Source of the DNA: Procambarus clarkii
Lineage: Eukaryota > Arthropoda > Malacostraca > Decapoda > Cambaridae
Direction: 5' to 3'
Length of the DNA: 64,000 nt
NCBI RefSeq assembly: GCF_040958095.1
Contig: NC_091158.1
Span: 37,580,710-37,644,709, forward strand
The translations under genes were made by a program, and so were the position numbers. Each line of letters begins with the position of its first letter. The first letter of the stretch is position 1. The notes beneath the pieces were generated by a model that was not told where the DNA came from, did not search any database, and was given only the letters and a program-made list of their open reading frames with translations. Below are positions 6,216-61,496 of this stretch, piece after piece.

Positions 6216-7884
6216 GCTACTCCACAGTCACATCAGAAGGAAAACAACAGTGAAAGAACAGGTATTGAAACTTAGAACAGGCGAGGACAGGTATACAGAG
6301 AATGACAGAGAGGTGTGTGAGGAACTCAACAAGAGGTTCCAGGAGGTCTTCACAATAGAACAGGGTGAGGTCACTGTGCTAGGAGAAAGGGAGGTAAACC
6401 AGGCGGCCTTGGAGGAGTTCGAAATTACGAGAGAGGAGGTCAAGAGACACCTGCTGGATCTGGATGTTAGAAAGGCGGTTGGTCCAGATGGGATCTCACC
6501 ATGGGTACTGAAAGAGTGTGCAGAGGCACTTTGCTTGCCACTCTCCATAGTGTATAGTAAGTCACTAGAGACGGGAGACCTACCAGAAATATTGAAGACG
6601 GCGAATGTGGTCCCAATATACAAAAAGGGCGACAGACAAGAGGCACTGAACTACAGGCCAGTGTCCTTGACTTGTATACCATGCAAGGTGATGGAGAAGA
6701 TCGTGAGAAAAAACCTGGTAACACATCTGGAGAGAAGGGACTTTGTGACAAATCGCCAACATGGATTCAGGGAGGGTAAATCTTGCCTTACAGGCTTGAT
6801 AGAATTCTACGATCAGGTGACACAGATTAAGCAAGAAAGAGAGGGCTGGGAGGACTGCATTTTCTTGGATTGTCGGAAAGCCTTTGACACAGTACCGCAT
6901 AAGAGGCTGGTACATAAGCTGGAGAGACAGGCAGGTGTAGCTGGTAAGGTGCTCCAGTGGATAAGGGAGTATCTAAGCAATAGGAAGCAGAGAGTTACGG
7001 TTAGGGGTGAGACCTCCGATTGGCGTGAAGTCACCAGTGGAGTCCCACAGGGCTCTGTACTCGGTCCTATCTTGTTTCTGATATATGTAAATGATCTCCC
7101 GGAGGGTATCGATTCATTTCTCTCAATGTTTGCGGACGATGCTAAAATTATGAGAAGGATTAAAACAGAAGAGGACTGTTTGAGGCTTCAAGAAGACCTA
7201 GACAAGCTGAAGGAATGGTCGAACAAATGGTTGTTAGAGTTTAACCCAACCAAATGTAATGTAATGAAGATAGGTGTAGGGAGCAGGAGGCCAGATACAA
7301 GGTATCATCTGGGAGAGGAAATTCTTCAGGAGTCAGAGAAGGAAAAAGACTTGGGGGTTGATATCACGCCAGACCTGTCTCCTGCAGCACATATCAAGCG
7401 GATAACATCAGCGGCATATGCCAGGCTGGCCAACATACGAACGGCATTCAGAAACTTGTGTAAAGAATCATTCAGAACTTTGTATACCACATATGTCAGG
7501 CCAATCCTGGAGTATGCAGCCCCAGCATGGAGTCCATATCTAGTCAAGGATAAGACTAAACTGGAAAAGGTTCAAAGGTTTGCCACCAGACTAGTACCCG
7601 AGCTGAGAGGTATGAGCTACGAGGAGAGACTACGGGAATTAAACCTCACTTCGCTGGAAGACAGAAGAGTTAGGGGGGACATGATCACCACATTCAAGAT
7701 TCTGAAGGGAATTGATAGGGTAGATAAAGACAGTCTATTTAACACAAGGGGAACACGCACAAGGGGACACAGGTGGAAACTGAGCGCCCAAATGAGCCAC
7801 AGAGATATTAGAAAGAACTTTTTTAGTGTCAGAGTGGTTGACAAATGGAATGCATTAGGGGGTGATGTGAGTAGTAGGGAGTAA
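6213..7884 (+). pseudogene. LINE-A copy 1, 5'-truncated reverse transcriptase fragment
   Basis: The frame encodes the reverse transcriptase half of a non-LTR retrotransposon ORF2 of the Jockey/CR1 kind. Visible motifs are a KAFDTVPH block, SGVPQGSVLGPILF (about 7040) and the catalytic MFADDAK block (about 7129). The endonuclease half is absent: homology to LINE-A copy 2 begins only at 6213, equivalent to about 22974. The frame has no internal stop over 1.65 kb. Its C-terminus is artificial: after GGDV (ending at 7869) the last four residues and the stop are read from the inserted 12.1 kb element. The rest of this copy resumes at 19985. It is a relatively young copy compared with copy 2, which has several stops. 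Retrotransposon identity is certain; the exact clade is not. Confidence 0.93.
7864..7869. repeat. Left target-site duplication GATGTG
   Basis: GATGTG immediately precedes the AGTAGTAGGG terminus. The same six bases follow the right terminus at 19985-19990. Uninterrupted LINE-A copies (around 24623 and 52653) carry a single GTGATGTGGTGGAG at this point, which fits duplication of six bases on insertion. Confidence 0.9.
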
Positions 7885-8544
7885 GAGCCACAGGCTCCTT
7901 TTTTTTTCTGGGAAAAAAAGTGCCTGTGCGCCCCAAGGGTTTCAGGTAAATTTAGAATATCCCCTGTGCGCCCCAAGGGTTTTCAGGCGAATTTGGGGAG
8001 TCACAGATTTAGAATTAGGGAATTCTTATAATGAAAAATAATGTCATACGAGTTTGCTAAAGTTCTTATAAGAAAAATAATTTCCGAGACTTAGAAGTTT
8101 GTTAAGGCCTTATGGGAGAAATTCAAATAACATGTGTAGCACTTTAGGGCTTCCAGGAGAACTCTACGGACATATTTTACGTGTTTTCAACTTACAAAAT
8201 CGTCTATGTAAGCCTTAGTTATTCATATAAATTTAGAAAATCACCTGTGTAAGTCATTGTTTTCAGGGTTTCGTACATCACACCCCCCTCCCTCCCCCCT
8301 TACCTCGCAATCTGTCGCCTCACCTGTGTTTACTTTAGACGTCAGCCAGCCAGTCGGCTCTTAATCTTATCTTATCTTATCTTATCCATAATATCTGGAC
8401 CGTCCCTCCTCTCTCTCTCTCTCTCCTTTCATTCAGTTCAACTATTTTCCAACATCGTATGTTTGCTCCTTTTCATTAAGCAAGTCAGTATGTTTGCTCC
8501 TTTTCATTAAGCAAGTCAGTTTTACACAAATAAATCATGTTAGT

Positions 8545-9365
8545 AAGCAAGTTCTAGCTCACGTTCCCCACCTTAGTCCCCTGTCGTATAAAGAATACTA
8601 TCATTCCAATCCCTCTAAAATTTAAAAATAATCATATTTCAAATGTAGTTCAATACAGTAATTAGTTACCAAGCTCCAGCTCTTGTCCTCCGCCTTAGCT
8701 CTCTCTCGTATCTTCGTTAGTATCAGTCCAATTTCCCTGAAATTTCTACCCTCTGTATTTCAGACATAGTTTAGTAAATGCAAACAATTATCAAACTCTA
8801 GCTCTTGTCCCCAGCTTAGTTCATTTGTACAAAATCATTAGTAACAGTCCAATTTCCCTTAAATTGTTACCCTCTGTATTTCAGACACCGTAAATAAAAT
8901 CAAAATAGTTATCGAGCTCCAGCTCTCGTCCCCGCCTTAATTCTCTTTCGTATCTTTGTAAATAACCCATCAATTTCCCTAAAATTAAAAGCAGACATAC
9001 TTCAAAGTTAGTAAATAAGATCAAGTCAGTTACTGAGCTCCAGCTCTCGTCCCCGCCTTAGTTCTCTTTCATATCTTCGTTAGTATCAGTCCAATTTCCC
9101 TGAAATTTTTACCCTCTGTATTTCAGACATAGTAAATATGAAGTAAACAATTATAAAACTCTAGCTCTTGTCCTCTGTCCAAGCTCACTTTTGTAAAATC
9201 ATTACTCTCAGTCCAAATCACCCAACTACATTTTCAGACATAGTAAATAAAAAACCAGTTCAGTTATTAAGTTTCAACTCTTGTGCCCCAGCTTAGTTCA
9301 TTTGTACAAGTTCTTTATTTTCCAACTAAATCACCCTGAGATTTAAGATCACCGTATTTTCTAAC
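8545..9365. repeat. Tandem units of about 120 bp inside the left TIR
   Basis: Six to seven diverged units each begin near GAGCTCCAGCTCTCGTCC and contain a TCCAATTTCCCTGAAAT core and a CTCTGTATTTCAGACA block, ending in an AT-rich linker. The mirror array is at about 18480-19270 in the right TIR, and further units occur at 25948-26300. The regular spacing suggests a subterminal array of protein-binding sites or simple expansion; the sequence alone does not decide. Confidence 0.8.
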
Positions 9366-9670
9366 GTAGTAAAATTAATCTGGACATTAGCCTTAGATCA
9401 TCAGACATAAATATATTCGATCAAGTCCGTCTCCAGCGTATCTCTTATCCGAGTATACACATAACCCCAACCTGTTTAATTATCTTTCACCCCCTCCCAC
9501 CTTCCTCCATCTCATCCAAGTCTCGTAAATTTAAAATGTAGCTGTTAATTTGCGTTCTTTCCCCGTTCATAGCATATTCTCTGTAAGTTCAGATCTGTAC
9601 TTAGTCTTACATATTCTCTACTTCTTTCCAATTTTATACAAGACTTAAACAACTATTACCGTCTCCTCTA

Positions 9671-10095
9671 TCTTATTTAAACATGAGTCATATGTAAATA
9701 TACCCCGACTCTTTCCATCCAATACAAGTCCTAGCTTGTTCACCGCCCAACTCACTACGCTATTTCTACTCTACATGTTATAGCATGTTTTCCGCTCATC
9801 TTGGTACCAACCCTTACAATCTCTCTCTCATTCCTTTTACATGTCTCAGCATGTCTCAGCATGTTCGCCTCGCATCTTACTACGCTGTCTACTTTACATG
9901 TTGTAGCGTGTATTACTGTGTCCCATATCTTATTTAAACATGAGTCATATGTAAATATACCCGACTCCTTCCATCCATTACAAGTCCTAGCTTGTTCACC
10001 GCCCAACTCTCTACACTGTCTACTTTACATGTTGTAGCATGTTTTCCGCACATCTTGATACCATCCCTTACAATCTCTCAATCCTTTACACATCC
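9671..10095. repeat. Two-copy direct repeat (period about 260 bp) inside the left TIR
   Basis: A segment starting TCTTATTTAAACATGAGTCA and running through a CTAGCTTGTTCACCGCCC block to a CATGTTTTCCGC block occurs at about 9671-9830 and again at about 9930-10090. The right TIR carries the same pair in reverse. The duplication therefore predates the present pair of arms or was copied between them. Confidence 0.75.
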
Positions 10096-10639
10096 CAACT
10101 TTCAACCCTTTCTTACAATTTTCCTCCATCCCTCCGCTACATGTTCTTACCCGTTCATTACAGTCCACTACTTATTCTCTAATCATCTCTGTACTAATTC
10201 TCAAAACTAGTTGGTTCTGTCATTTTAGTAAGTAAGTAAGTAGATCATCGTTATTAACAACGACAACAACAACAACAACAGTAACATTACTAATTCACAG
10301 TAAGTTACTACTGAGCATTTGGTAGTTATCCATTTTCAAATAATGTCAATATAAATCATTCTAAGACATCTTCGTACAATTAAAGATACTTGCCCGTGCA
10401 CTAAGTCATTACTTACAGTAGCATCTTAAGGCATTGTTTTCGTAACTCAGTTTTATTAAACATACACCTTCATTAGTCAAAGGAAAACTTTTCAAGTCAT
10501 TGTATTCAATATTTCCGTTAAACTTACTACATCATGTCATTATTCGGTTTCATAATTAAGTACTTGTTTCAGTCCTCCAATGTAATAAGCAAATTATTCT
10601 ATTAAGGATAAAGAAATCTTATTTAGAAGAGGCATTAAG

Positions 10640-10645
10640 TTTATT
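10640..10645 (-). terminator. Poly(A) signal for the IAP gene inside the left TIR
   Basis: TTTATT on plus (AATAAA on minus) lies about 255 bp beyond the IAP stop. The mirrored AATAAA is at 17162-17167 in the right TIR. Both arms can therefore provide a 3'-end signal to the gene that runs into them. Use of the site is inferred. Confidence 0.5.
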
Positions 10646-10900
10646 ACAACATTTAACGCATACAAGTGTTCTTAGTAGTTATACAGGTATTCAAGAAATC
10701 ATAAGTGTTCTTAGTAGTTTTACAAGTGTTCAAGAAAATCATATACAAGTGTTCTTAGTAGTTATACAAGTGTTCAAGAAATCATAAGTGTTCAAGAAGC
10801 AATTATATACAAGTATTCTTAGTAGTTATACAAGTGTTCAAGAAAATCATATACAAGTGTTCTTAGTAGTTATACAAGTGTTCAAGAAAATCATAAGTGT

Positions 10901-12357
10901 TCAAGAAGCAATTGGATTTATTATATATAAAATATTTCCTCTACAAATTGGACAGCATTTCAGAGCTAAAAGACAACCACTGCATGTCACCATATGTTTA
11001 CATGGTAGTATTACAATATTTATATTTTTATCCATACAAACTCTGCATAAAATATCTTCTTCCCAAGATTGTTCTATACAGTCCTTGTTTTCATCAGTGT
11101 TAGTACAAGTCTCCGGTAAAGTTTTCAATCCCAGATCTTCAAGCGTAGCTTCTTGTTCCTTTTTATCATCAACTGCTTCATAAATTAAGTCCCGTACCCG
11201 TAAATAAATATCTGTTCCCTCTTGCATATACCTCAACACGATTTCTAGACATCTACTTTGTATAATAAAAGGCAACAAATCTCTGGATTCCTTAAGGTAC
11301 TCACTTAAAGCATATCTTATACTCTCCACAGGTATTAATTTTTTATGAATCAGATGTTTGAACTTATCCATACCCTCCATTAAGATATTAATTAAATCAT
11401 TGTCTATAGGTTTTATAGGTAATGGTATTGTCAATCTAGCATTCTTAACAAATTCCTTGCCCCTTGCAAGAATAATGTAAGCACATTCTGGACTACATCT
11501 CGCATGTAACGTCCAAGGATCATCTTCTGGTCTCCAATTTCGTATTCCACAGGCGCAGTGATAGCAGCAGACGTGGTCACTTATACCTGAAAACCATAAA
11601 ACAATCCAGCATTATCTCGTTACTATCTTTTAACTAATATTCATTATTTCTTTACTTATAACTCTATTAAGTTTAAAATAGTTAAAACACTTCATACCAC
11701 AGTAAAAAAAACCAGCTTCTGCCAGCTCATGAGAAGTTTGCTTGACGCTTCCAGGCCATGTCATATCAAATGTCTCTAGGCGAGATTTATAAGTTACCAA
11801 TCCTGGATTCAGCGATTTCCTAAATTTGATCAATCCCAGATCTTCCTTAGGAGGAGCACCACCTAAAAAAATATAACGTAGTTACGTAAATTATTCTTTA
11901 GAAGAATAAGAAGTATCTATTTAAGCAATCAAGTTTTGTACAGAGTATATAAGACTGGTATAAGAATACATCATAAGAATATATACTTACTACTACCACT
12001 TATTTTCTTATTTCCCAGTTCTATTTTATGGGAAACAAATTCCAGTCCATATTTGAAAGCTATCTCAGACACCTCTAAAGAAACATTGTCACTCCTCTCG
12101 CCTCTAATAAAGGCACAGTCTTGATTAATGATCTTATGACGTCTTCTGGGGGTATCACCAACAATCCATGCACCTACTATACAATAACAAAATGCACACA
12201 AACAGTAATCACTATTGCGAAGGTAATAGAACCCATCTTCAACTAAGTCAATAGGGTTTAACCACTTAATAGGCCAATCCACAAATGTTTGTAGTCTAAC
12301 TCCTGCACATTTAAGGCTTTCTATACTGTAAAACTTCCTGGCACACAAAGGATCCAT
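10901..12357 (-). CDS. Inhibitor-of-apoptosis protein, two BIR domains and RING, three exons
   Basis: Proposed exons on minus are 12357-11991, 11862-11698 and 11586-10901. All junctions follow GT-AG (donors GTAAGT and GTATGA; acceptors TTTTAG and TTTCAG) and keep frame, giving about 405 residues. BIR1 (residues about 20-95) shows TFVDWP, GFYYLRNSD, CAFC, W, GDTPRRRH and a final Cys. BIR2 (about 147-215) is built only when exons 2 and 3 are joined: SRLETFDMTWPG, AEAGFFYCG, then CYHCACGIRNW, EDDPWTLHARCSPEC. A C-terminal C3HC4 RING spans about 358-393 (CRVC, CKHM, CSGC, CPIC), typical of E3 ubiquitin ligase activity. No CARD is apparent. Such proteins bind caspases or adaptor kinases and ubiquitinate partners in the cytosol. 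IAP genes occur in arthropod hosts and in baculoviruses and nimavirus relatives; which source applies is undecided. The stop codon lies within the innermost repeats of the left TIR. Confidence 0.92.
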
Positions 12358-12920
12358 CGTGTGAGGGCAGCACTAGCTATTAGAGTAGGATAAGCAAGTA
12401 TATATATCCCTAAAATAAGTATCGTACATCGCTACATATTTAACAGTTTCCTCATTTATAATAGACAGTAATCTCCTCTAAATACTTCTCTATTTAAAAA
12501 TCCTTAAAGTTTCATAATTAAATGAAGCTCTTATATAAATACTTAGTAAACTACTTTCATTATTTATTAGACTTATTAGAAAAATACATCACTTTGGCAA
12601 TCTCGCTAAAAGTATACTGTTACGTCATTATTCGTAGCTGCCGTACATAATGATAGATATATATATATAATTTAGTAGTAAATTCTTATTTAATCTAATT
12701 AAAATATATGCTTAAAGCATCTATATCCTAAAATGAAATATACTATTAGTTATAATGTAATATATAATATCACTCTAAGGTAACAAAAATCCTTATTAAT
12801 ATATTCAAATAAGTGGTAACTTTTACATTTCCCCCAATATAAGAGCGCGGACCTCGCATTAGGGATATTATTACGACTATCTGGTTCGTATCTACTACCT
12901 TACGAGGAAGAAAATTCACC
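12358..12920. promoter_or_regulatory. Central divergent promoter region of the element
   Basis: This 563-bp AT-rich region separates the leftward IAP gene from the rightward genes. On the rightward side a TATAAG box (12838-12843) lies 83 bp before the first macrodomain ATG, in the context AATATAAGAGCGCGG. A clear TATA box for the IAP start was not identified; the stretch 12655-12680 is (TA)-rich. No coding frame of note is present. Confidence 0.55.
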
Positions 12921-13541
12921 ATGGATACTGTTCTGACAACTTGTCAGGGTTATTTAACCGACGATTCATTTTGTAATAATGAAACCTGTATTGTGTACGG
13001 AGTGAACTGTATATCCTGTGTTCCCAGAGGAATGGCTCTAGACTTAGCCAAGAAATATTCTCATGCTGATGCTTATAATGTTCGCCGACCCTTGTACAGT
13101 CTTAAGAGATGTATCCCTGAAGATCGTCCAGTACCAGGAACAATTCATATCTCTAAAGGAGAAAATTTTCCATATATTGTTGCTATAGCCACACAATACG
13201 GTATTGGATTACCTATAGAAAGTAATAACATTGCTCAGGGAATTATAGAAAACTCAAAAGACAGAAACATGCTCTCTGGATTAAACGAAGATACATCCAT
13301 TAATCGTCTCGTCTACTTCAAGAATGGTATGAAAGATTTATTTAACTTTATCAAGGGCTCTCCTCAAATTATGAGAGTTATAATACCAACAGGAATTGGG
13401 ATTACATGTGTTCGAAGAGATAAAGTTTGGGAAAATACTTATCTTCCTGTTATTGAAGATATGTATAAACAGTTAAAACCCTACGGAGTGGAAGTTAAAT
13501 TACTGTTTAACGAGGAGATTATGCAGAGGAAGAGCAAGTAA
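12921..13541 (+). CDS. Macrodomain-like protein 1 (206 aa)
   Basis: The start has a good context (TTCACCATGG) and a TATA box 83 bp upstream. The fold pattern resembles compact TARG1/ADP-ribose-phosphatase macrodomains: a beta strand then GVNCISCVPRGMALDLAKKY (residues 27-46, equivalent to the ADP-ribose-binding N-x-G-x-G-IA helix region), PGTIHI (72-77), a YIVAIATQ strand (85-92), an RLVYFKNGMKDL helix (129-140), IIPTGIG (154-160, equivalent to the phosphate-binding P-x-I-G-x-G-L loop) and VWENTYLP (169-176). Macrodomains bind or hydrolyse ADP-ribose on proteins or nucleic acid; activity here is inferred and catalytic residues cannot be assigned with confidence. The gene is intronless. Its stop is only about 50 bp before the TATA box of the next gene. 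It shares its motif order with the next two genes, so the three are paralogues. Confidence 0.78.
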   Translation: MDTVLTTCQGYLTDDSFCNNETCIVYGVNCISCVPRGMALDLAKKYSHADAYNVRRPLYSLKRCIPEDRPVPGTIHISKGENFPYIVAIATQYGIGLPIESNNIAQGIIENSKDRNMLSGLNEDTSINRLVYFKNGMKDLFNFIKGSPQIMRVIIPTGIGITCVRRDKVWENTYLPVIEDMYKQLKPYGVEVKLLFNEEIMQRKSK

Positions 13542-13592
13542 CACTTGGCAACCTTTTGTGTGCGCAGTGTTTCTACGCGCAGCCTAAAGATG

Positions 13593-13599
13593 TATATAT
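13593..13599 (+). promoter_or_regulatory. TATA box of macrodomain-like gene 2
   Basis: TATATAT at 13593-13599 lies 81-87 bp before the ATG at 13680, nearly the same spacing as for gene 1. It also argues that the upstream in-frame extension back to 13545 is not translated, because that part would lie at or before the transcription start. Confidence 0.5.
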
Positions 13600-13679
13600 G
13601 CTTCCCCCGGAGTGATCTCTTACGGTGTCCTCCTCTTCTTGGATGTCAGAATCTACTTCAAGCTTGGATATTCAAGGCT

Positions 13680-14579
13680 ATGGAGATCAAGACTATTATT
13701 GGAGACTTTGCCTCCCTGCCCGTCTACAATAATCACGACTGTTTATTGTACGATCTTGATGCTACGAGTGTACAAATGTGTAAAATTGTGCAAGGATTGT
13801 GGGATCGTTACCCATATGCGAGATTACATCGTGAAAACTTTCCTTACAAAAACAGGGCTGTTGTATCTTATCGCAGTAACCCTGGCAGTATACATATTGG
13901 AGAACCACCTGAATTTAACAACAGGATGGATGAAGATCCCCATCTACCCCTTATTATTGGTTTAGTGACTCAGTTTGCTAGTAGACCTGCAACTTTACCA
14001 GCATATGAAAATCCTCCGTGTGAAGTACGAAGTTTAGATGAACATTTTTACGATGGACTTGAAAAAGATACAGAATATCAGAGATGGCGCTGGTTTGAAA
14101 ATGCTCTGAAGGAAGCCCTTGTTTTCATTCTTAAAAGATGTGTTAAGAGAATTATTATTCCATATGGGTTTGGCATGTCAAGTTATTTGGACAACTGCGC
14201 AGTATGGGAAAGTAAATATTTGCCTATACTTGAGAAAATAGGACAAAAACTACGAAAACGAGGTATTGTACTCTTCATAGTACGTCCCGAAAACATCGTT
14301 CCTCCTCAGTCATCCACCCACGGCATCTTTGAAAATAAGATTCCATACATTGCTGTTCTTCAAAATGGATCCACAACTAATGCTACTGATGCTGCTAGGA
14401 CACCTGAAGATGATGCTACGCCTGCTACCGCTGATGCTAGTTCACCTTCTATCAACACTAAGTTGTCTGATACAATTAATTCAACACCTGTTAATGTTAC
14501 TACGTCTGTTGATACTAATGTTACAATGTGTGTTAGTAGTAGTTTTACAAATTTAGAAGAGAAGATGGATTGGGAATAA
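13680..14579 (+). CDS. Macrodomain-like protein 2 with Ser/Thr-rich tail (299 aa)
   Basis: The frame is open from 13545, but the first ATG downstream of the TATA box is at 13680 (context AGGCTATGG), so that start is chosen. The domain repeats the order seen in gene 1: DCLLYDLDAT (residues 20-29), RYPYARL (43-49), PGSIHI (68-73), LIIGLVTQ (91-98), RWRWFENALKEAL (135-147), IIPYGFG (159-165), WESKYLP (176-182) and a final strand ending VRPEN. After about residue 205 comes a 95-residue low-complexity tail rich in Thr, Ser, Asn, Ala and Asp, without a recognised domain. The ADP-ribose-binding first loop is altered compared with gene 1 (no NC-x4-RG pattern), so this copy may bind another ligand or be inactive. 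It sits in tandem between its two paralogues, each with its own promoter-like site. Confidence 0.75.
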   Translation: MEIKTIIGDFASLPVYNNHDCLLYDLDATSVQMCKIVQGLWDRYPYARLHRENFPYKNRAVVSYRSNPGSIHIGEPPEFNNRMDEDPHLPLIIGLVTQFASRPATLPAYENPPCEVRSLDEHFYDGLEKDTEYQRWRWFENALKEALVFILKRCVKRIIIPYGFGMSSYLDNCAVWESKYLPILEKIGQKLRKRGIVLFIVRPENIVPPQSSTHGIFENKIPYIAVLQNGSTTNATDAARTPEDDATPATADASSPSINTKLSDTINSTPVNVTTSVDTNVTMCVSSSFTNLEEKMDWE

Positions 14580-14764
14580 TAATGTCTGTAAATAATTTAT
14601 ACTTTGTACATTTTTACAAATTAAATACATTGTACATTTTTACACATTAAATAACAAAATAGAAACTCGTGTGTTTATTTTCTCCCTTTTTAATGTCTAA
14701 ATGTCAACTCTACTTTTCTGAGTATATAGGAAGAGGTACGAAACTTTTTCTGTCTTACTTCAAG
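14580..14764 (+). terminator. 3' end of gene 2 and TATA box of gene 3
   Basis: Two ATTAAA poly(A)-like signals (14620-14625 and 14646-14651) lie in a short tandem duplication built on TACATTTTTACA. A TATATA box at 14723-14728 (context GAGTATATAGG) precedes the chosen start of gene 3 by 37 bp. Confidence 0.5.
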
Positions 14765-15391
14765 ATGGATTGTTCTATGTACATGCAAGTGAAGCTTAAG
14801 CGTTTGAATAAGTGTATTATAGATGCTGATTTTACTAGTGATGAAATTCTAAAACCTGGAGACTGTCTTGTCTACGATTCTCATAATTTATCTGGCGGAT
14901 TTGCACAACTGTTATGGGAAAAATATCCTTACAGTAAAGTTTCCGAGTGTGAAGTGGTACAGAATAATATAACTCCTGGTGGTATAGTACTTGCTTTATC
15001 TCCAGAACCAGAAATAAAACCTCATATTATAGGACTTCAATACAGTAGCTCTAATGAAGATCTAGGATTACAGAAAGATATTATTAAACGTTGGAGTTTT
15101 AAATCTGCAATAAGGCAAATTTGTTGTCAGGCAAGAAATAATAATTTAATCCAGCGTATAATTATTCCATATGGTATTGGGTTTAATGACGGAATAGGAT
15201 GGAGTAAAGAAGAACAAGAAGAATGGGAGACACACTATTTTCCAGGACTAGCCCATTTAGCTTATGTTTTAAAGAATAATAAAAAAGAATTATTAATGGT
15301 TCGTATACCTCTTGGAGAAGATGTTACGGGGACTGGGAGAGAGAAGAAACAAGTAGAGGGTAGATCTAATAAACGGAAGAGAATGTCGTAG
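14765..15391 (+). CDS. Macrodomain-like protein 3 with basic tail (208 aa)
   Basis: The frame is open from 14669, but the ATG at 14765 (CAAGATGG) is chosen because a TATA box lies just upstream at 14723. An ATG at 14693 is the alternative. Motifs follow the order of the two preceding genes: DCLVYDSHNL (residues 33-42), LLWEKYPYSKV (49-59), PGGIVL (71-76), PHIIGLQYS (86-94), RWSFKSAIRQI (109-119), IIPYGIG (133-139) and WETHYFP (154-160). A Lys/Arg-rich C-terminus ending in NKRKRMS could be a nuclear localisation signal. The NC-containing first loop of gene 1 is replaced here by SHNLSGG. Function is inferred from the macrodomain-like pattern only. Confidence 0.73.
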   Translation: MDCSMYMQVKLKRLNKCIIDADFTSDEILKPGDCLVYDSHNLSGGFAQLLWEKYPYSKVSECEVVQNNITPGGIVLALSPEPEIKPHIIGLQYSSSNEDLGLQKDIIKRWSFKSAIRQICCQARNNNLIQRIIIPYGIGFNDGIGWSKEEQEEWETHYFPGLAHLAYVLKNNKKELLMVRIPLGEDVTGTGREKKQVEGRSNKRKRMS

Positions 15392-15555
15392 TTAAAACTA
15401 GTAGATCTGAAATAATACATATAACTAATTTGGAAACTACAGCTAAGAGAGAGGGGGCGGAGCGTAACAATCTCCGATGTGATAAGCTAGGTCGGGATAT
15501 ATCTTGACATAAACTCCCCATCTCGGTCCAGCAGTGAGAAGACATACTCGGATCG
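15392..15555 (+). promoter_or_regulatory. Intergenic region and promoter of the methyltransferase-like gene
   Basis: A GC-box-like GGGGGCGGAGC (about 15453-15463) and an ATATAT box (15497-15502, context GGGATATATCTTGAC) precede the ATG at 15556 by 54 bp or more. No poly(A) signal for gene 3 stands out. Confidence 0.45.
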
Positions 15556-16972
15556 ATGGCTGCTGTATACAGTAAGTGATTATTGTATGATGTACTTACA
15601 GTACTCGTTATATTTGTTGTGATATAATTTTTGCTTATTATTGAATATCTTTTAGTTTTGAAATATTATGATTATTTAATAGTCCCTGTGTTAAATATTG
15701 TATTTTTCTTTGTTTAAAGATCTACCCCATGTGATGGATGTGAAGAGTCTACCAGGGTTTGGAAGCATGCCTGATCTTGTGTCAGAAACTATATGGCAAA
15801 GTCCAGCTTCGACTGTTTTGTGGAAGAATATGCCCCTGGCTGAAAAACGGACTTATAAAGTGATGACACATACTGATAAATGTACGCATGAGAACATTGT
15901 TCCAGCTCTAGCAAAGTTTATTAGCAAAAGTGAAAATGTTTTAATGATACTGATCGGTCATGATTTTATAAAGTTGAAAGAAGAACTTCCAATGATAAAA
16001 TGCGACATAGTCTTATTTAGCTTAAAAGAGAGTGTTACAGATGTACTCAAGAAACATGAGAATTGTCAAGTGTTGTTGCTGACGAAAACTCCTAGTAAGG
16101 CCGAGATGAAGAAAATTTCTTTGTTATTTAAAGGCGATAAAATAATTTGCACTTTTAGACCTAAACCCCGTTTTAAATACATATTTCCAGAATTTGAAGA
16201 AGTGCCTATAGGATGTAACTTAAAGGATAAATTTTTTATAAGAAAATTTGTGGATGAAATTGGTTCTCCAAATGCTGCAAACTGGTTTATTAATAAGTTG
16301 AGTTCTGAAGAACGAGAAGTGTATACTATAATGAGCCAGGATGAACTGAAACAGCAGGTAAATAGTAAGACTGTGAAAGAGCTTAGTATTATTCACCCTA
16401 AAACAGAAGAAGATGAACATTGGAGTTTAATTGATCATATGGAGGAGAGCTTTCCATCTTTTCCGTTAAATTTAATAAAGATGAGACCAGAAATAGGATA
16501 TCATACCCCCCAAAAGATAGAAATAGAGGCAGTGATGAGATTTATAGGACAGGATCCTGTACTTGGTGTTTTCTCTGGTATGGCCTTTATTGAAAATCTT
16601 ATTAGGATAAGACATACTAATGTGGTACGAGCTACAGATAATTACTCGAATATGGGTGAGAGTAAGTGGATGGAGGTTGAACAAATGGATGCTGTAGAAG
16701 CAGTTAGGACTTATTGTAATGACAGAGAAGTACTTCTAATGTCCTGGCCTGAATTGATTCGTGATGATAATGTTTATAGCGATGCTTTCTATGTTTTAAA
16801 GGAATTTAAGGGACAAAAACTAATCTATTTTGGAGAAGGGGAAGGGGGATGCTGTGCATGTGATGGATTTTTTAACTTGCTGGATAGTGAGTTTCATTGT
16901 GTGAAATCAAATACATGTTTTACTTATAATTCTTTTATAAATTCAAATGTTTATTTCTATATAAGACTATAG
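15556..16972 (+). CDS. Protein with degenerate methyltransferase-like C-terminal domain, two exons (about 422 aa)
   Basis: A 16-bp first exon (15556-15571, ATGGCTGCTGTATACA) is joined across a 148-bp intron (15572-15719, GTAAGT...TTTAAAG) to 15720-16972. This replaces the meaningless start MYFSLFKD of the unspliced frame and keeps phase. The C-terminal third resembles a Rossmann-fold SAM-methyltransferase pattern: VLGVFSGMAFIENL (residues 286-299) where a G-x-G loop is expected, VVRATDNY (307-314) ending strand 2 with an acidic residue, a DAVEAVRTY helix, LLMSWPE (344-350, like the LLLxWPP of some eukaryotic families), then LIYFGEGEGG and FFNLLD. The glycine loop is degenerate (FSGMAF), so catalysis is doubtful. 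The N-terminal half (1-250) has alternating strands and helices that I do not recognise. The stop codon abuts the inner border of the right TIR, which supplies an AATAAA signal. Confidence 0.7.
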
Positions 16973-17161
16973 TGTTTATGATTTCTTGAACACTTGTATA
17001 TGTTTTTCTTGAACACTTGTATAACTACTAAGAATAACTGTATATAATTGCTTCTTGAACACTTATGATTTTCTTGAACACTTGTAAAACTACTAAGAAC
17101 ACTTATGATTTCTTGAATACCTGTATAACTACTAAGAACACTTGTATGCGTTAAATGTTGT

Positions 17162-17167
17162 AATAAA
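17162..17167 (+). terminator. Poly(A) signal inside the right TIR
   Basis: AATAAA lies about 190 bp beyond the stop of the methyltransferase-like gene and is the mirror of 10640-10645 (the coordinates sum to 27807). Confidence 0.5.
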
Positions 17168-19839
17168 CTTAATGCCTCTTCTAAATAAGATTTCTTTATC
17201 CTTAATAGAATAATTTGCTTATTACATTGGAGGACTGAAACAAGTACTTAATTATGAAACCGAATAATGACATGATGTAGTAAGTTTAACGGAAATATTG
17301 AATACAATGACTTGAAAAGTTTTCCTTTGACTAATGAAGGTGTATGTTTAATAAAACTGAGTTACGAAAACAATGCCTTAAGATGCTACTGTAAGTAATG
17401 ACTTAGTGCACGGGCAAGTATCTTTAATTGTACGAAGATGTCTTAGAATGATTTATATTGACATTATTTGAAAATGGATAACTACCAAATGCTCAGTAGT
17501 AACTTACTGTGAATTAGTAATGTTACTGTTGTTGTTGTTGTTGTCGTTGTTAATAACGATGATCTACTTACTTACTTACTAAAATGACAGAACCAACTAG
17601 TTTTGAGAATTAGTACAGAGATGATTAGAGAATAAGTAGTGGACTGTAATGAACGGGTAAGAAAATGTAGCGGAGGGATGGAGGAAAATTGTAAGAAAGG
17701 GTTGAAAGTTGGGATGTGTAAAGGATTGAGAGATTGTAAGGGATGGTATCAAGATGTGCGGAAAATATGCTACAACATGTAAAGTAGACAGTGTAGAGAG
17801 TTGGGCGGTGAACAAGCTAGGACTTGTAATGGATGGAAGGAGTCGGGTATATTTACATATGACTCATGTTTAAATAAGATATGGGACACAGTAATACACG
17901 CTACAACATGTAAAGTAGACAGCGTAGTAAGATGCGAGGCGAACATGCTGAGACATGCTGAGACATGTAAAAGGAATGAGAGAGAGATTGTAAGGGTTGG
18001 TACCAAGATGAGCGGAAAACATGCTATAACATGTAGAGTAGAAATAGCGTAGTGAGTTGGGCGGTGAACAAGCTAGGACTTGTATTGGATGGAAAGAGTC
18101 GGGGTATATTTACATATGACTCATGTTTAAATAAGATAGAGGAGACGGTAATAGTTGTTTAAGTCTTGTATAAAATTGGAAAGAAGTAGAGAATATGTAA
18201 GACTAAGTACAGATCTGAACTTACAGAGAATATGCTATGAACGGGGAAAGAACGCAAATTAACAGCTACATTTTAAATTTACGAGACTTGGATGAGATGG
18301 AGGAAGGTGGGAGGGGGTGAAAGATAATTAAACAGGTTGGGGTTATGTGTATACTCGGATAAGAGATACGCTGGAGACGGACTTGATCGAATATATTTAT
18401 GTCTGATGATCTAAGGCTAATGTCCAGATTAATTTTACTACGTTAGAAAATACGGTGATCTTAAATCTCAGGGTGATTTAGTTGGAAAATAAAGAACTTG
18501 TACAAATGAACTAAGCTGGGGCACAAGAGTTGAAACTTAATAACTGAACTGGTTTTTTATTTACTATGTCTGAAAATGTAGTTGGGTGATTTGGACTGAG
18601 AGTAATGATTTTACAAAAGTGAGCTTGGACAGAGGACAAGAGCTAGAGTTTTATAATTGTTTACTTCATATTTACTATGTCTGAAATACAGAGGGTAAAA
18701 ATTTCAGGGAAATTGGACTGATACTAACGAAGATATGAAAGAGAACTAAGGCGGGGACGAGAGCTGGAGCTCAGTAACTGACTTGATCTTATTTACTAAC
18801 TTTGAAGTATGTCTGCTTTTAATTTTAGGGAAATTGATGGGTTATTTACAAAGATACGAAAGAGAATTAAGGCGGGGACGAGAGCTGGAGCTCGATAACT
18901 ATTTTGATTTTATTTACGGTGTCTGAAATACAGAGGGTAACAATTTAAGGGAAATTGGACTGTTACTAATGATTTTGTACAAATGAACTAAGCTGGGGAC
19001 AAGAGCTAGAGTTTGATAATTGTTTGCATTTACTAAACTATGTCTGAAATACAGAGGGTAGAAATTTCAGGGAAATTGGACTGATACTAACGAAGATACG
19101 AGAGAGAGCTAAGGCGGAGGACAAGAGCTGGAGCTTGGTAACTAATTACTGTATTGAACTACATTTGAAATATGATTATTTTAAATTTTAGAGGGATTGG
19201 AATGATAGTATTCTTTATACGACAGGGGACTAAGGTGGGGAACGTGAGCTAGAACTTGCTTACTAACATGATTTATTTGTGTAAAACTGACTTGCTTAAT
19301 GAAAAGGAGAAAACATACGATGTTGGAAAATAGTTGAACTGAACTGAATGAAAGGAGAGAGAGAGAGAGGAGGGAGAGAGAGAGAGGAGGGACGGTCCAG
19401 ATATTATGAAGATAAGATAAGATTAAGAGCCGACTGGCTGTCCGGGCGTAAAGTAAACACAGGTGATGCGAGAGATTGCGAGGTAAGGGGGAGAGGGAGG
19501 GGGGTGTGATGTACGAGACTTGAAAACCATGACTTACATAGGTGATTTTCTAAATTTATATGAATAACTAAGGCTTACATAGACGATTTTGTAAGTTGAA
19601 AACATGTAAAATATGTCCGTAGAGTTCTCCTGGAAGCCCTAAAGTGCTACACACGTTATTTGAATTTCTCCCATAAGGCCTTAACAAACTTCTATGTCTC
19701 GGAAATTATTTTCATCATAAGACTTAAACAAACTTCTAAGTCTCGGAAATTATTTTCATTATAAGAACTTTAACAACTTCTAAAATCAGTGACTGACAAA
19801 AATTTACCTGAAACCCTGGCTAACACGCGGGATATTTCC

Positions 19840-19984
19840 CAGAAAAAAAAAAGGAGCCGCTGGCTCTTACAGTCCACAGGGATCCTCCGGCCTGAAAAAA
19901 AAAGGAGCCGCTGGCTCTTACAGTCCACAGGCACTTTTTTTCCCCCAAAAAAAAAGGAGCCTGTGGCTCTTACTCCCTACTACT
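19840..19984. repeat. Triplicated terminal module at the right end of the element
   Basis: Three near copies of an A-run followed by GGAGCC...GGCTCTTAC occur at about 19845-19890, 19895-19922 and 19951-19984. The first two read GGAGCCGCTGGCTCTTACAG and the last GGAGCCTGTGGCTCTTACTC. Each contains a GAGCC/GGCTC dyad. The left terminus has a single copy. This looks like local duplication of the terminus. Confidence 0.75.
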
Positions 19985-20155
19985 GATGTGGTGGAGGCTG
20001 ACTCCATACACAGTTTCAAATGTAGATATGACAGAGCCCGATAGGCTCAGGAATCTGTACACCTGTTGATTGACGGTTGAGAGGCGGGACCAAAGAGCCA
20101 GAGCTCAACCCCCACAAACACAACTAGGTGAGTACAACTAGGTGAGTACACACAC
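19985..20155 (+). mobile_element. 3' end of LINE-A copy 1, resumed after the inserted element
   Basis: Starts with the second GATGTG and continues GTGGAGGCTGAC through the C-terminal ORF2 codons, the stop and the 3' UTR (TAGGCTCAGGAATCTGTACA, then AGAGCCAGAGCTCAACCC). It ends in the family's 3' tail of repeated ACTAGGTGAGTACA units. It matches the 3' ends at 24623-24766 and 52653-52818. Confidence 0.9.
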
Positions 20156-21774: not shown

Positions 21775-24680
21775 ATGGAACAGCTTCCCCCTCCAGCAGA
21801 ACACTCACCAAGGAGGCGATTTGAGAAGAGACAGAAGAAAGTGAGCCTCAAAGCAATGTACACTAACATAGATGGAATTACAAATAAAGCAAATGAGCTT
21901 GGAGAACGGGTACTAGAGGAAAACCCAGACATAATAGCCCTCACAGAAACAAAGCTAACGAAAACAATAACACATGCAGTGTTCCCACAGGACTATTATG
22001 CTATGAGGAAAGTGAGGGAAGGAAGAGGTGGTGGTGGTGTAGCTCTGCTGGTAAGAAAAGGCTGGGATTTTGAGGAAATGGTTATTCAGGCCTGTGAAGG
22101 TTTCAGTGACTACATAGCAGGTACCATAACATATGGAGGGAAAAAAATTATAGTCGTAGTCATATATAATCCACCACCAAATGACAGAAGACCCAGACAG
22201 GAATATGATAGAAACAGCATGGCCACCATTAACATAATAGAAAGAGCAGCTTCTGTTGCTAGCAGGAATGGATCTGGACTACTAATTATGAGAGACTTCA
22301 ACCATGGGAAGATAGATTGGGAGAACAGAGACCCGCATGGAGGACCAGAAACATGGAGAGCTAAGCTGCTGGACGTGGCAACAAGAAACTCTCTAAGCCA
22401 GCACATCAAGGAACCAACAAGAATAAGAGGAGAAGATGAACCAGAAATGCTTGATTTGATATTTACCCTAAAAGAATGGGATATAAGGGAAGTTAAGATG
22501 GAAGCGCCCTTGGGAATGAGTGATCACAGTGTATTGAACTTTGAGTACCTGGTAGAGCTAGGAATTATCTCCCCCCCAAAAAAAAACTAGGAATCAAAAG
22601 GATGGCATACCGAAAGGGGAATTATGAACAGATGAGAAGTTTCCTAAGGGAAATACCTTGGGACACAGACCTCAGAGATAAGTCTGTACAAGGTATGATG
22701 GACTATGTTACCCAAAAGTGTCAGGAGGCAGTAAACAGGTTCATCCCGGCCCAAAGGGAGAAATCCGAGATGCAACAGAAGAATCCATGGTATAATAGGG
22801 CATGTATGAAAGCAAAGAAACTGAACAAAAGGGTGTGGAGGAACTTCTGGAATAACAGAGCACCAGAAAGCAGAGAGAGATACCAGAGAACCAGGAATGA
22901 GTACGTCAGGGTGAGAAGAGAAGCAGAGAAAAGTTTTGAAAATGATATAGCAAACAAAGCCAAGACCGAACCAAAGCTACTCCACAGTCACATCAGAAGG
23001 AAAACAACAGTTAAAGAACAGGTATTGAAACTTAGAACAGGCGAGGACAGGTATACAGAGAATGACAAAGAGGTGTGTGAAGAGCTCAACAAGAGGTTCC
23101 AGGAGGTCTTCACAATAGAACAAGGTGAGGTCACTGTTCAAGGAGAAAGGGAGGTAAACCAGGCGGCCTTGGAAGAGTTCGAAATTACGAGAGAGGAGTT
23201 CAAGAGACACCTGCTGGATCTGGATGTTAGAAATGCTGTTGGCCCAGACGGGATCTCAACATAGGTACTGAAAGAGTGTGCAGAGGCACATTGCTTGCCA
23301 CTCTCCATAGTGTATAGTAAGTCACTGGAGACGGGAGACCTACCAGAAATATGGAAGACGGCGAATGTGGTCCCAATATACCAAAAGGGCGACAGGCAAG
23401 AGGCACTGAACTACAGGCCAATGTCCTTGACTTGTATACCATGCAAGGTGATGGAGAAGATCGTGAGAAAAAACCTGGTAACACATCTGGAGAGAAGGGA
23501 CTTCGTGAGAAATCGCCAACATTGGTTCAGGGAGGGTAAATCTCTCCTGACAGGCTTAATAGAATTCTAAGACCAGGTGACAAAGATTAAGCAAGAAAGA
23601 GAGGGCTGGGAGGACTGCATTTTTTTGGATTGTCGGAAAGCCTTTGACACAGTACCGCATAAGAGGCTGGTACATAAGATGGAGAGACAGGCAGGTGTAG
23701 CTGGTAAGGTACTCCAGTGGGTAAGGGAGTACCTAAGCAATAGGAAGCAGAGAGTTACGGTGAGGGGTGAGACCTCCGATTGGCGTGAAGTCACCAGTGG
23801 AGTCCCACAGGGCTCTGTACTCGGTCGTATCTTGTTTCTGATATATGTAAATGATCTCCCAGAGGGTATCGATTCATTTCTCGCAATGTTTGCGGACGAT
23901 GCCAAAATTATGAGAAGGATTAAAACAGAAGAGAACTGTTTGAGGCTTCAAGAAGACCTAGACAAGCTGAAGGAATGGTCGAACAAATGATTGTAAGAGT
24001 TTAACCCAACCAAATGTAATGTAATGAAGATAGGTGTAGGGAGCAAAAGGCCAGATACAAGGTATCCTCTGGGAGAGGAAATTCTTCAGGAGTCAGAGAA
24101 AGAAAAAGACTTGGGGGTTGATATCACGCCAGAACTGTCTCCTGCAGCACATATCAAGAGGATAACATCAGCGGCATATGCCAGGCTGGCCAACATACGA
24201 ATGACATTCAGAAACTTGTGTAAAGAATCATTCAGAACTTTGTATACCACATATGTTAGGCCAAGCCTGGAGTATGCAGCCCCAGCATGGGGTCCATATC
24301 TAGTCAGGGATAAGACTAAACTGGAAAAGGTTCAAAGGTTTGCCACCAGACTAGTACTCGAGCTGAGAGGTATGAGCTACGAGGAGAGACTACGGGAATT
24401 AAACCTCACTTCGCTGGAAGACTGAAGAGTTAGGGGGGACATGATCACCACATTCAAGATTCTCAAGGGAATTGATAGGGTAGATAAAGACAGGTTATTT
24501 AACACAAGGGGCACACGCACAAAGGGACACAGTTGGAAACTGAGTCCCCAAATGAGCCACAGAGATATTATAAAGAACTTTTTTAGTGTCAGGGTGGTTG
24601 ACACATGGAATGCATTAGGAAGTGATGTGGTGGAGACTAACTACATGCACAGTTTCAAGTTAAGATATGATAGAGCCTAA
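21775..24680 (+). pseudogene. LINE-A copy 2 ORF2 (endonuclease and reverse transcriptase), frameshifted with four stops
   Basis: The apurinic-like endonuclease domain is in 21775-22590: a YTNIDGITNK start block, IIALTETKL, RDFNHGKIDW (the usual GDFN has its glycine changed to Arg) and MSDHS near the end. A frameshift at the C7/A9 run near 22570-22587 moves the frame. The reverse transcriptase continues from 22602 with stops at 23262-23264, 23568-23570, 23988-23990 and 24423-24425. KAFDTVPH, SGVPQGSVLG and MFADDAK are still readable. The frame ends at 24680, followed by the family 3' UTR. This copy is dead but shows the layout of the whole LINE-A family and the uninterrupted sequence at the 12.1 kb element's target. 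Confidence 0.92.
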
Positions 24681-24766
24681 TAGGCTCAGGAATCTGTACA
24701 CCTGTTGATGGACACTTGAGAGGAGGGACCAAAGAGCCAGAGCTCAACCACTGCAAACACAACTAG
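24681..24766 (+). mobile_element. LINE-A copy 2 3' UTR and tail
   Basis: Matches the other two LINE-A 3' ends and stops at AACTAGGTGAGTACA, directly against the A/C-rich satellite. Confidence 0.85.
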
Positions 24767-25947
24767 GTGAGTACACCCCACCCCAATAACACACACCCCA
24801 GAACATTACACACACCCCACCACACTACCATACCCCCCACCACACTACCACACACCCAAAACTACCACACATACCACCACACTACCACACACCCCACCAC
24901 ACTACCACACACCCCACCACACTACCACACAACCCCACCACACTACCACACATCCCCACCACACTACCACACACCGCACCGCACTACCACACACCCTATA
25001 ACACTACCACAATACCCCACCACACTACCACACACCCACCACACTACCACACATCCCAGCACACTACCACACACCCACCACACTACCACAAACTCCTCCA
25101 CACTACCACACACCCACCACACTACCACACATCCCAGCACACTACCACACACCCACCACACTACCACAAACTCCTCCACACTACCACACACCCCACCACA
25201 ACACCACACAAACCCACCACACTACCACTCACCCCACCACACTACCACACAACCCCACCACGCTACCACACATCTCACCACACTACCAATCACCCCACCA
25301 CACTACCACACTCCCAACCATACTACCACACAACCCCACCACACTACCACATTTCCCACCACACTACCACACACCCCTACACACTACCACACACTCACAC
25401 CACAGTACCATACACCCCACCTTGCTACCAAACAAACCACCACACTACCTCACACACCCACAACACTACCATACACATCACTACACGACCACACAACCCA
25501 ACCATACCACCACACTACCACTCAACCAACCACACTACCTCAGCAATCTACCACACACACCCCATCACACTACCATACACCCCAACACACACCTCATCAC
25601 ACTACCACAAAATCCCACCACACTACTAAACAACCCCCACCAAACTACCTGATAACCACACCACACTTCCACACACCCCACCACACTACCACACAGCCCA
25701 TAACAATACGACACAACCCCACCACACTACCACACAACCCCACCACACTGCCATATACCCCAGAACACTACACATACCCTACCACGCTACCACACAAACC
25801 ACCACACTACCACACACTCCACAACACTTCCACACACCCTGCACACTACCACACTACCACACACCCCACCACACAAACACACACCTTCCCCACACTACCA
25901 CACTGCCACAAAACCCACCTCACTACCACACACCCCACTAAACTACG
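24767..25947. repeat. A/C-rich satellite block 3
   Basis: Same CACACCCCACCACACTAC-like array as 1-6063, bounded on the left by a LINE-A tail and on the right by an orphan terminus of the 12.1 kb element family. The 400-residue Thr/His/Pro frame here is repeat-derived. Confidence 0.95.
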
Positions 25948-26917
25948 AGAAGATACGAGAGGGAAGTAAGGTGGATGACAAGAGCTAGAGCTCGGTAAAT
26001 GTGATATATTTACTTACTCAGTTAGAAGTATGGCAGGTTTAAATTTCAGGAATACTGATTGGTTATTAACGAAGATACAAGAAGGAACTAGGAAGGTGGA
26101 CAAGAGCTGGAGCTCTGTAACAAAACTGTCGTATTGTACGATGTCTGAAATACACCGTGTAAAAATTTTAGGGAAGTTAATCTGATAGTAAAGAAGATAT
26201 GGGGATAAACTAAGGCTGAGGACAAGAGCTGGAGCTTGCTTACTGACTTCATATATTTCACTATGTCAGAAATATGACTGTTTAAAATTTCAGGGGAAAT
26301 TGATAGGTTAATATTAAGACTACACTTATAAATGTGGACTCTTACAAATTTTGGTCTTCAATTTTTGGGCACAAAGTGGACTATGACGAATTTTTGGGTA
26401 TAAAATGGATTCTGATGAAAAATGGGTTGAAAATGGACTCCGACAAATTTTGCTCACAAAGTGGACTCTTGACTAATTTTGGTAGATTACAGGATTCTGA
26501 ATATTTTTCGGCACAAACTCGACTATGAATATTTTTGGGCACAAACTGAACTCTTAATATTTTTGGGCACAAACTGGAGAAAAGAACTCTTCACAAAATT
26601 TTAAAAACTCAGAAATTTTTTTTCTCATAAGAATTCCTTAATTCCAAATCAGTGACTGCCCAAATTCACCTGAAACCCCCGACACGCCACACACAATATT
26701 TGAATTTCACCCGTAAGAACTCTTAACAAACTTCTATGATCATATTTTTCGCATGAGAATTCTTAAAAAACTTCTAAGATCTCGGAAAATATTTGTCCCA
26801 TAAGAATTCCTTAATTCCAAATCAATGACTGCCCAAATTCACCTGAAACCCCCAACACGCCACACACGATATTTGCCCAAAACAAAATATCGTCTGTGGC
26901 GTGTCATCCCTACTACT
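25948..26917 (-). mobile_element. Orphan terminus of a second element related to the 12.1 kb element
   Basis: In the same orientation as the right TIR it starts within the roughly 120-bp units (GACAAGAGCTAGAGCTCGG, then two more units to about 26310). It then has short AT-rich units with GGGCACAAA, the ACTTCTAAGATCTCGGAAA and ACTGCCCAAATTCACCTGAAACC blocks twice, and ends TCCCTACTACT at 26907-26917, matching the right terminus at 19974-19984. Overall it is clearly diverged from 16973-19984. There is no second arm in the window. The 33-bp minisatellite begins directly after the terminus. Confidence 0.8.
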
Positions 26918-61460: not shown

Positions 61461-61496
61461 CTCAAAAGTAGGCCTGCCATCACTAGGAGCCTGCTT

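Follow-up and report, generated by a model that had tools for sequence, protein, structure and literature searches.

What kind of element occupies 12 kb of crayfish DNA with inverted repeats of about 3 kb at its ends and, between them, genes that point to cell death and ADP-ribose? The element lies in a 64,000-nucleotide stretch of the Procambarus clarkii genome (assembly GCF_040958095.1, contig NC_091158.1, positions 37,580,710 to 37,644,709, forward strand), which we call the window (G000:C9 in the 4.03-Gb genome). We find that it is very probably a non-autonomous derivative of a Polinton (Maverick), likely moved in trans by Polintons with related ends, and that it carries a recurrent cargo of five genes: an inhibitor of apoptosis (IAP) gene, three macro-like paralogs (M1, M2, M3) and an open reading frame (ORF), ORF5. 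Polintons are virus-like transposons with 6-bp target-site duplications (TSDs), 5'-AG termini and terminal inverted repeats (TIRs), and they normally encode PolB, integrase, ATPase, protease and capsid proteins.

The Element and Its Insertion Site

7864..7869, no strand: left TSD, GATGTG
7870-19984: element, 12,115 bp
7870..10913, plus strand: left TIR, starting with AGTAGTAGGG; inner border approximate (tandem repeats)
8664-9138 and 18669-19144: 121-bp tandem-repeat block of about 3.9 copies, one in each TIR
16988..19984, minus strand: right TIR; inner border approximate
19985..19990, no strand: right TSD, GATGTG
24430..24775, plus strand: empty site 1, 91% identity
52504..52818, plus strand: empty site 2, 94% identity

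The element has 5'-AG...CT-3' ends and long TIRs, and AGTAGTAGGGAGTAAGAGCC is the sequence of both termini. The two TIRs align at 94.4% identity over 2,938 columns, with the terminal 59 bp at a further 96.6%. They share a core of 2,126 bp that is 100% complementary (8618-10743 and 17064-19189), and the outer 150 bp or so differ between the left and right arms. The five genes form two divergent groups, with IAP on the minus strand and the other four on the plus strand; IAP and ORF5 contain introns. The termini, the repeats, the GATGTG duplication and the divergent layout are all as described in the original prediction, a note made from the letters of the window.

As query for empty sites we used 200 bp of left flank fused to 200 bp of right flank taken from beyond its GATGTG. 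In both sites found, the alignment runs unbroken across the junction and GATGTG occurs once. The original prediction had placed the element in a long interspersed element (LINE) whose empty site occurs twice in the window; the two sites are there, and the host repeat, whose duplicated target is GATGTG, appears LINE-like, a class assigned by reading of its frame only.

A relative has left a remnant in the window as well. It keeps one end, is about 70% similar to the element's repeat, and loses its other end in an ACCACACT-type repeat:

25949..26917, minus strand: remnant, with the AGTAGTAGGG terminus at 26917

Copies in the Crayfish Genome

How many such elements are there? The copy and length figures given here are drawn from the top-scoring members of long candidate lists (40 of more than 3,000), and the copy counts are lower bounds. 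The outermost 731 bp of the left TIR, used as query, give at least 98 matches (best 40 of 3,233 candidates). ORF5 gives at least 99 listed matches, of 624 candidates, at 94-100% identity, 6 with a stop and 93 without. M1 gives at least 150 listed matches, of 1,934 candidates; 130 have at least 78% identity, the other 20 have 61-62%. Stops occur in 10 of these 150, all in the more similar group, and 140 are free of them. The 20 places at 61-62% represent a second M1 subfamily, none with a stop among the matches listed. M1 lies within 6 kb of ORF5 in 93 of the 99 listed ORF5 places (median distance 2,804 bp), and in three of the other six (C17, C35, C124) an M1 match is found 9-10 kb off. The cargo element is present in about a hundred copies or more, with ORF5 and M1 staying together.

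We examined the main 10-kb stretch of ten copies. M2, M3 and ORF5 are present in all ten, M1 and the IAP exons in nine; the exception is C17, where M1 is further away and IAP was sought within the main 10-kb stretch only. The genes of these copies are 95.5-100% identical to those of the window element. Both ends are visible in seven copies, with a single mismatch in one of the 14 ends and matched 6-bp flanks in all seven; of the remaining three, C53 and C17 show one end each and C61 none. Two gene-less relatives, C62 and C43 (see below), have matched 6-bp flanks too, so that a matched 6-bp TSD is found in ten of ten elements read at both ends (the window element, the seven copies, C62 and C43). 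Further copies with the same ends and TSDs of 6 bp, both proposed as checks in the original prediction, are therefore borne out, and neither of the outcomes it had named against itself, a lack of like-ended copies or an assembly artefact, came true. A 20-base match to the terminus in IMG/VR fell on a contig with genes that read as phage-like, and we take it as chance.

A Polinton with Related Ends

Is there a relative in the same genome that could supply the proteins for movement? A search with the PolB profile (PF03175) gives at least 95 matches (best 91 of 1,428 candidates), many in frames open for about 1,300 amino acids. We read the flanks of two PolB loci, one in C16 (L042/L043) and one at L044/L045; these are two Polinton families with open genes. 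The C16 Polinton has TIRs that agree at 99.1% over 928 columns, the terminus AGTAGTAGGG, and CCCCTT flanking both sides. After PolB come an A32-type ATPase (3.3e-8) and an rve integrase (6.9e-9) with a chromodomain (4.2e-6), and more ORFs stand at the usual protease and capsid positions, with a weak Peptidase_C48 match (0.033). Capsid genes give no usable Pfam match even in this Polinton; position and length make one ORF a likely candidate, and the element is apparently complete. The L044/L045 Polinton (family A) shows the same order of rve, Chromo and A32 matches, and no AGTAGTAGGG end was identified in the stretch read.

The C16 end is 84.6% identical to the left repeat of the window element over 544 columns (bases 30-557 of the repeat), and 76-91% identical, in pieces, to eight other cargo ends, with patchy alignments for C14 and C29. 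A search with this end yields at least 55 matches (best 40 of 3,534 candidates) and 17 inverted pairs. Six pairs have a listed PolB match between them and measure 13,360-13,545 bp; ten have no listed PolB or ORF5 match. The remaining pair, C88, holds ORF5 and M1, spans 12,481 bp, and has ends 94-95% identical to those of the Polinton. Over 514 bp, another end, in C13, matches that of the Polinton at 100% (rounded, with one gap). An M1 match lies 6.4 kb inside it, and M1 lies 6.4 kb from the right end of the window element as well; we infer that the C13 end and M1 belong to one element, whose partner end is absent from the scored places.

The interiors are different. A Pfam scan of six element ORFs gives no PolB, integrase or ATPase, the core of the window element has no nucleotide match in the two Polintons, and tblastn with ORF5, M1 and M2 against the same two gives no match (best E 0.056). 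The absence of a capsid gene is judged from the core and tblastn comparisons. To this extent the original prediction, that PolB, integrase, ATPase, protease and capsid genes are all missing, stands, and the relative it had suggested looking for, with the common terminus and PolB or integrase, is the C16 Polinton. Because the terminal sequence recurs in a Polinton equipped with PolB, integrase and A32 ATPase, because the TSDs are 6 bp long and because C88 carries the cargo between nearly Polinton-identical ends, we regard the element as a non-autonomous Polinton derivative. The same prediction had called it virus- or Polinton-derived, with genes as cargo, and the many copies with the same cargo agree; that these genes manipulate the host or act in immunity, as it also proposed, may be so. 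The shared ends and TSD suggest that Polinton proteins move it in trans.

The Cargo Genes

10901..12357, minus strand: IAP gene, 405 amino acids; exons 12357-11991, 11862-11698, 11586-10901
12921..13541, plus strand: M1, 206 amino acids; predicted macrodomain with a wsv206-like fold
13680..14579, plus strand: M2, 299 amino acids; M1 paralog with a longer tail
14693..15391, plus strand: M3, 232 amino acids with a P0003-like start (208 from the next ATG); M2 paralog
15556..16972, plus strand: ORF5, 422 amino acids; exons 15556-15571, 15720-16972

The spliced IAP product has two BIR domains and a C-terminal RING. Pfam matches the first BIR at 2.5e-14, the second across exons 2 and 3 (2.7e-5 and 1.7e-8), and the RING at 1.2e-12, so that its assignment to the IAP (BIRC) family is firm at the level of sequence. 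This domain content suggests that the product inhibits caspases or cell death.

M2 is related to M1 (BLASTP, 27% identity, E 4e-19), and its start is shared by the database protein P0001. M3 is related to M2 (28%, E 2e-12), and its database counterpart is P0003. A structure model of M1, built from 8 sequences with a predicted local distance difference test (pLDDT) score of 79.4, has a macro fold, and its best viral match is a nimavirus wsv206-like protein. The fold is thus predicted from a model for M1, and for M2 and M3 by homology to it; the three products may handle ADP-ribose. A search of PDB sequences with M1 and M3 gave no useful match, and a search of IMG/VR with the macro alignment found no relative. 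One P. clarkii NCBI gene model, P0004 ("ionotropic receptor 93a-like"), ends in an attached M1-like stretch; an element inserted there may have misled the annotation.

The exon structure of ORF5 is taken from the P. clarkii protein P0008, which is 98% identical; the match in C53 is 100% identical to P0008. The C-terminal part of ORF5 matches phrog_19090, a family without assigned function, at E 1.8e-10. Searches of Pfam, NCBIfam, PADLOC and PDB with ORF5 gave nothing above noise, a protein search with its C-terminal part gave no match, and IMG/VR held no relative. Its C-terminal half may resemble methyltransferase-like proteins, a presumed likeness on which we base no claim.

Apparent Selection on the Cargo and Evolution of the Repeats

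Are the cargo genes maintained? We counted changes against the window sequence in 9 or 10 other copies, assuming a transition weight of 2:

ORF5: 33 synonymous, 55 nonsynonymous; P 0.0012; omega 0.49
M1: 15 synonymous, 17 nonsynonymous; P 0.004
M2: 16 synonymous, 32 nonsynonymous; P 0.11
M3: 14 synonymous, 19 nonsynonymous; P 0.012
RING exon: 15 synonymous, 25 nonsynonymous; P 0.03
BIR1 exon: 9 synonymous, 10 nonsynonymous; P 0.018

When pooled, nonsynonymous changes are depleted (158 of 260, against an expected fraction of 0.766; P 9e-9), and five of the changes counted create stops. Pairwise nonsynonymous divergence (dN) is 0.008-0.015 and synonymous divergence (dS) 0.025-0.046. It is implausible that the host selects on each of about a hundred dispersed copies; the products are therefore probably important to the element itself. 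If products are pooled in a cell, selection on single copies would need moments at which a copy is alone, for example transfer in a particle.

Within an element, the two repeats agree at 98.8-100% in six cases out of eight; between elements, the best stretch of the left repeats agrees at 81.7-99.6%. This pattern fits a process in which one end is renewed from the other at some copying rounds and ends are exchanged between elements.

Element Length and Gene-Less Relatives

C62 (12,027 bp) and C43 (12,690 bp) have the same ends. Their middle 6.2-6.6 kb contains no cargo gene and no ORF longer than 176 amino acids; it forms a fold-back whose arms measure 2.7-2.9 kb. C22 (13,063 bp) contains a 2.1-kb piece of the same type. 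These three (L047 in C43, L046 in C62, L048 in C22) are fold-back elements of 12.0-13.1 kb, and the part read is mostly inverted repeat.

Both ends were located for 38 distinct elements, which measure 11,455-13,980 bp, with a mean of 12,818 and a standard deviation of 596. Nine cargo elements measure 12,098-12,815 bp; the six with PolB (13,360-13,545 bp) are about 1 kb longer; three that are gene-less, or partly read as such, measure 12,027-13,063 bp. These lengths are good to tens of bases, many ends being extrapolated from the match. Ends were paired over 3-25 kb in one search and 0.5-25 kb in the other, and no pair shorter than the observed range appeared in either. It is tempting to read lengths of 11.5-14.0 kb, gene-less members included, as a hint at packaging in Polinton capsids. 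That gene-less members keep the length would fit a packaging limit; the alternative is that they descend together from a young burst.

Other Features of the Window

Two further candidates were recognized by reading only:

45194-47026: frame of 610 amino acids; candidate Penelope-like reverse transcriptase
57753-62528, minus strand: open frames of 1,235 and 343 amino acids; candidate gag/pol of a gypsy-type long terminal repeat retrotransposon

Proposed Mechanism and Alternative Explanations

The following steps could account for these elements. A Polinton integrase (rve plus chromodomain) would likely recognize the shared end and insert the element through a 6-bp staggered cut, and the Polinton DNA polymerase would likely copy the element from its ends; copying of this kind is proposed to make the two repeats of a copy alike. 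The IAP might plausibly restrain death of the host cell while the element replicates, and the macrodomain proteins might bind or remove ADP-ribose marks of host damage or of an antiviral response. Given the lengths, elements could hypothetically be packaged in Polinton capsids. A bolder picture, which we offer tentatively and consider somewhat unlikely, is that Polintons are a live virus-like system in these animals, and that size-matched satellites, lacking replication and capsid genes of their own, ride in their particles and bring IAP/ADP-ribose genes like those of shrimp nimaviruses as a survival kit through the single-copy bottleneck at transfer from cell to cell or animal to animal.

Several observations weigh against a trans-mobilized Polinton derivative with selected cargo. 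No transposition event has been observed. The ends of the window element are 84.6%, not fully, like those of the C16 Polinton, so that another Polinton may have moved the window copy. The use of best-scoring candidates favors copies that are young and alike, and content is established for 18 of the 38 elements whose length was measured. The two TIRs of C84 and of the window element are about 96% identical, and the left repeat of the window element is nearer to that of C65 (99.6%) than to its own right repeat. The macro fold relies on the single M1 model described above, the Pfam macro profile matches none of M1, M2 and M3, and a marseillevirus protein, second among the viral matches, comes close by E-value (7.2e-9) at a lower TM-score (0.60). 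The model of ORF5 (pLDDT 30.6) is too poor for a fold search. As to selection, the depletion in M2 is not significant, and three non-coding stretches (introns, intergenic) differ by 0.020-0.029, at or below dS and above dN. With non-coding divergence above dN and not clearly above dS, the neutral rate is poorly constrained, and the test may overstate the signal, part of which may date from a few source elements.

Could the five genes be passive passengers? On this view they came from a host or a virus, were caught a single time between Polinton ends and have been copied ever since without benefit to the element. The non-coding divergence and M2 just mentioned would fit, as would the gene-less members with the same ends (C62, C43 and, by its 2.1-kb piece, C22), whose existence indicates that the cargo is not needed for spread. 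However, the pooled depletion of nonsynonymous changes argues otherwise, as do the stop-free frames among the matches listed (ORF5 in 93 of 99, M1 in 140 of 150, and the second M1 subfamily in all 20 places), and we consider this account improbable. There is a still smaller chance that ORF5 is an unrecognized recombinase or replication protein that makes the element autonomous. ORF5 is widely open, has an omega well below one and has no known fold, but the ends are those of a Polinton with its own integrase, gene-less members with the same ends show 6-bp TSDs too, and the Polinton flanks contain no ORF5 relative by tblastn.

The cargo also recalls crustacean viruses. The endogenous shrimp nimavirus Nimav-1_LVa is reported to have intron-bearing BIR-RING genes together with wsv206-like macro proteins (PMC7016691), and acquisition of wsv206 is suggested to have been independent in two nimavirus lineages (PMC7016691, PMC10871703). 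This pairing, and the nimavirus protein closest to the M1 model, would suit a self-moving piece of an endogenous nimavirus. The ends and TSD, however, are Polinton-like, and the window copy interrupts a LINE-like repeat and has a TSD of 6 bp, unlike the nimaviruses of Kawato et al., which are reported to insert in telomere repeats, 28S ribosomal DNA or AT microsatellites (PMC10871703). Endogenous nimaviruses (Nimav-1_LVa, majaniviruses) moreover have large genomes that include viral core genes and integrases of other kinds, in contrast to a 12-kb element with Polinton ends. We consider a nimaviral origin of this kind very unlikely. Least credible of all is an assembly artefact. Long near-identical inverted repeats are known to cause misassembly, but a matched 6-bp duplication flanks each of ten elements at separate loci, and the window contains empty sites; this excludes an artefact for the family, while errors in single copies are possible.

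Relation to Known Systems

The Polinton derivative favored here resembles Polintons in its 6-bp TSD, its 5'-AG ends, its long TIRs and the terminal 560 bp or so of a Polinton from the same genome. It differs from them in having no similarity to PolB, integrase, ATPase or other Polinton genes, in its recurrent five-gene cargo and in TIRs of about 3 kb, compared with 0.93 kb in the Polinton. Non-autonomous Polintons are recorded in Repbase. Phage satellites (phage-inducible chromosomal islands, or PICI, and P4) and virophage-type parasites likewise have no replication or capsid genes, the ends of their helper and a size near that of the helper; for the crayfish element, helper dependence is likely and packaging hypothetical.

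Cargo in Polinton-type elements has a precedent. Nematode Mavericks are reported to carry wosp proteases and krma kinases, non-core genes that spread along with the element; the cargo was acquired by Mavericks encoding many proteins, among them integrase, polymerase and capsid (PMC10680173). In the crayfish, cargo replaces these. Our literature search (few subscription papers and preprints) found no description of a non-autonomous or defective Polinton or Maverick, or of a Polinton satellite, and among the open papers searched those pairing Polintons with inhibitors of apoptosis concerned other matters. The parts are known (Polintons, cargo Mavericks, IAP and macro genes in nimaviruses); their combination is new as far as this search shows.

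What does this mean for the crayfish and its elements? To our knowledge, neither dependent satellites of Polintons nor Polinton particles in animals have been established. Here a single genome holds Polintons with open genes and at least two kinds of like-ended, like-sized elements in which no Polinton genes were found, and one of these kinds keeps a set of IAP and macro-like genes that looks selected. Both the length constraint and the selection on the cargo are open to direct testing. As the same gene pair occurs in shrimp endogenous nimaviruses, kin of white spot syndrome virus, the elements may show how genes of this kind pass between viruses and the genomes of their hosts. If the bolder picture were true, they would be the animal equivalent of phage satellites and a reservoir supplying large crustacean viruses and Polintons with the same anti-host genes.

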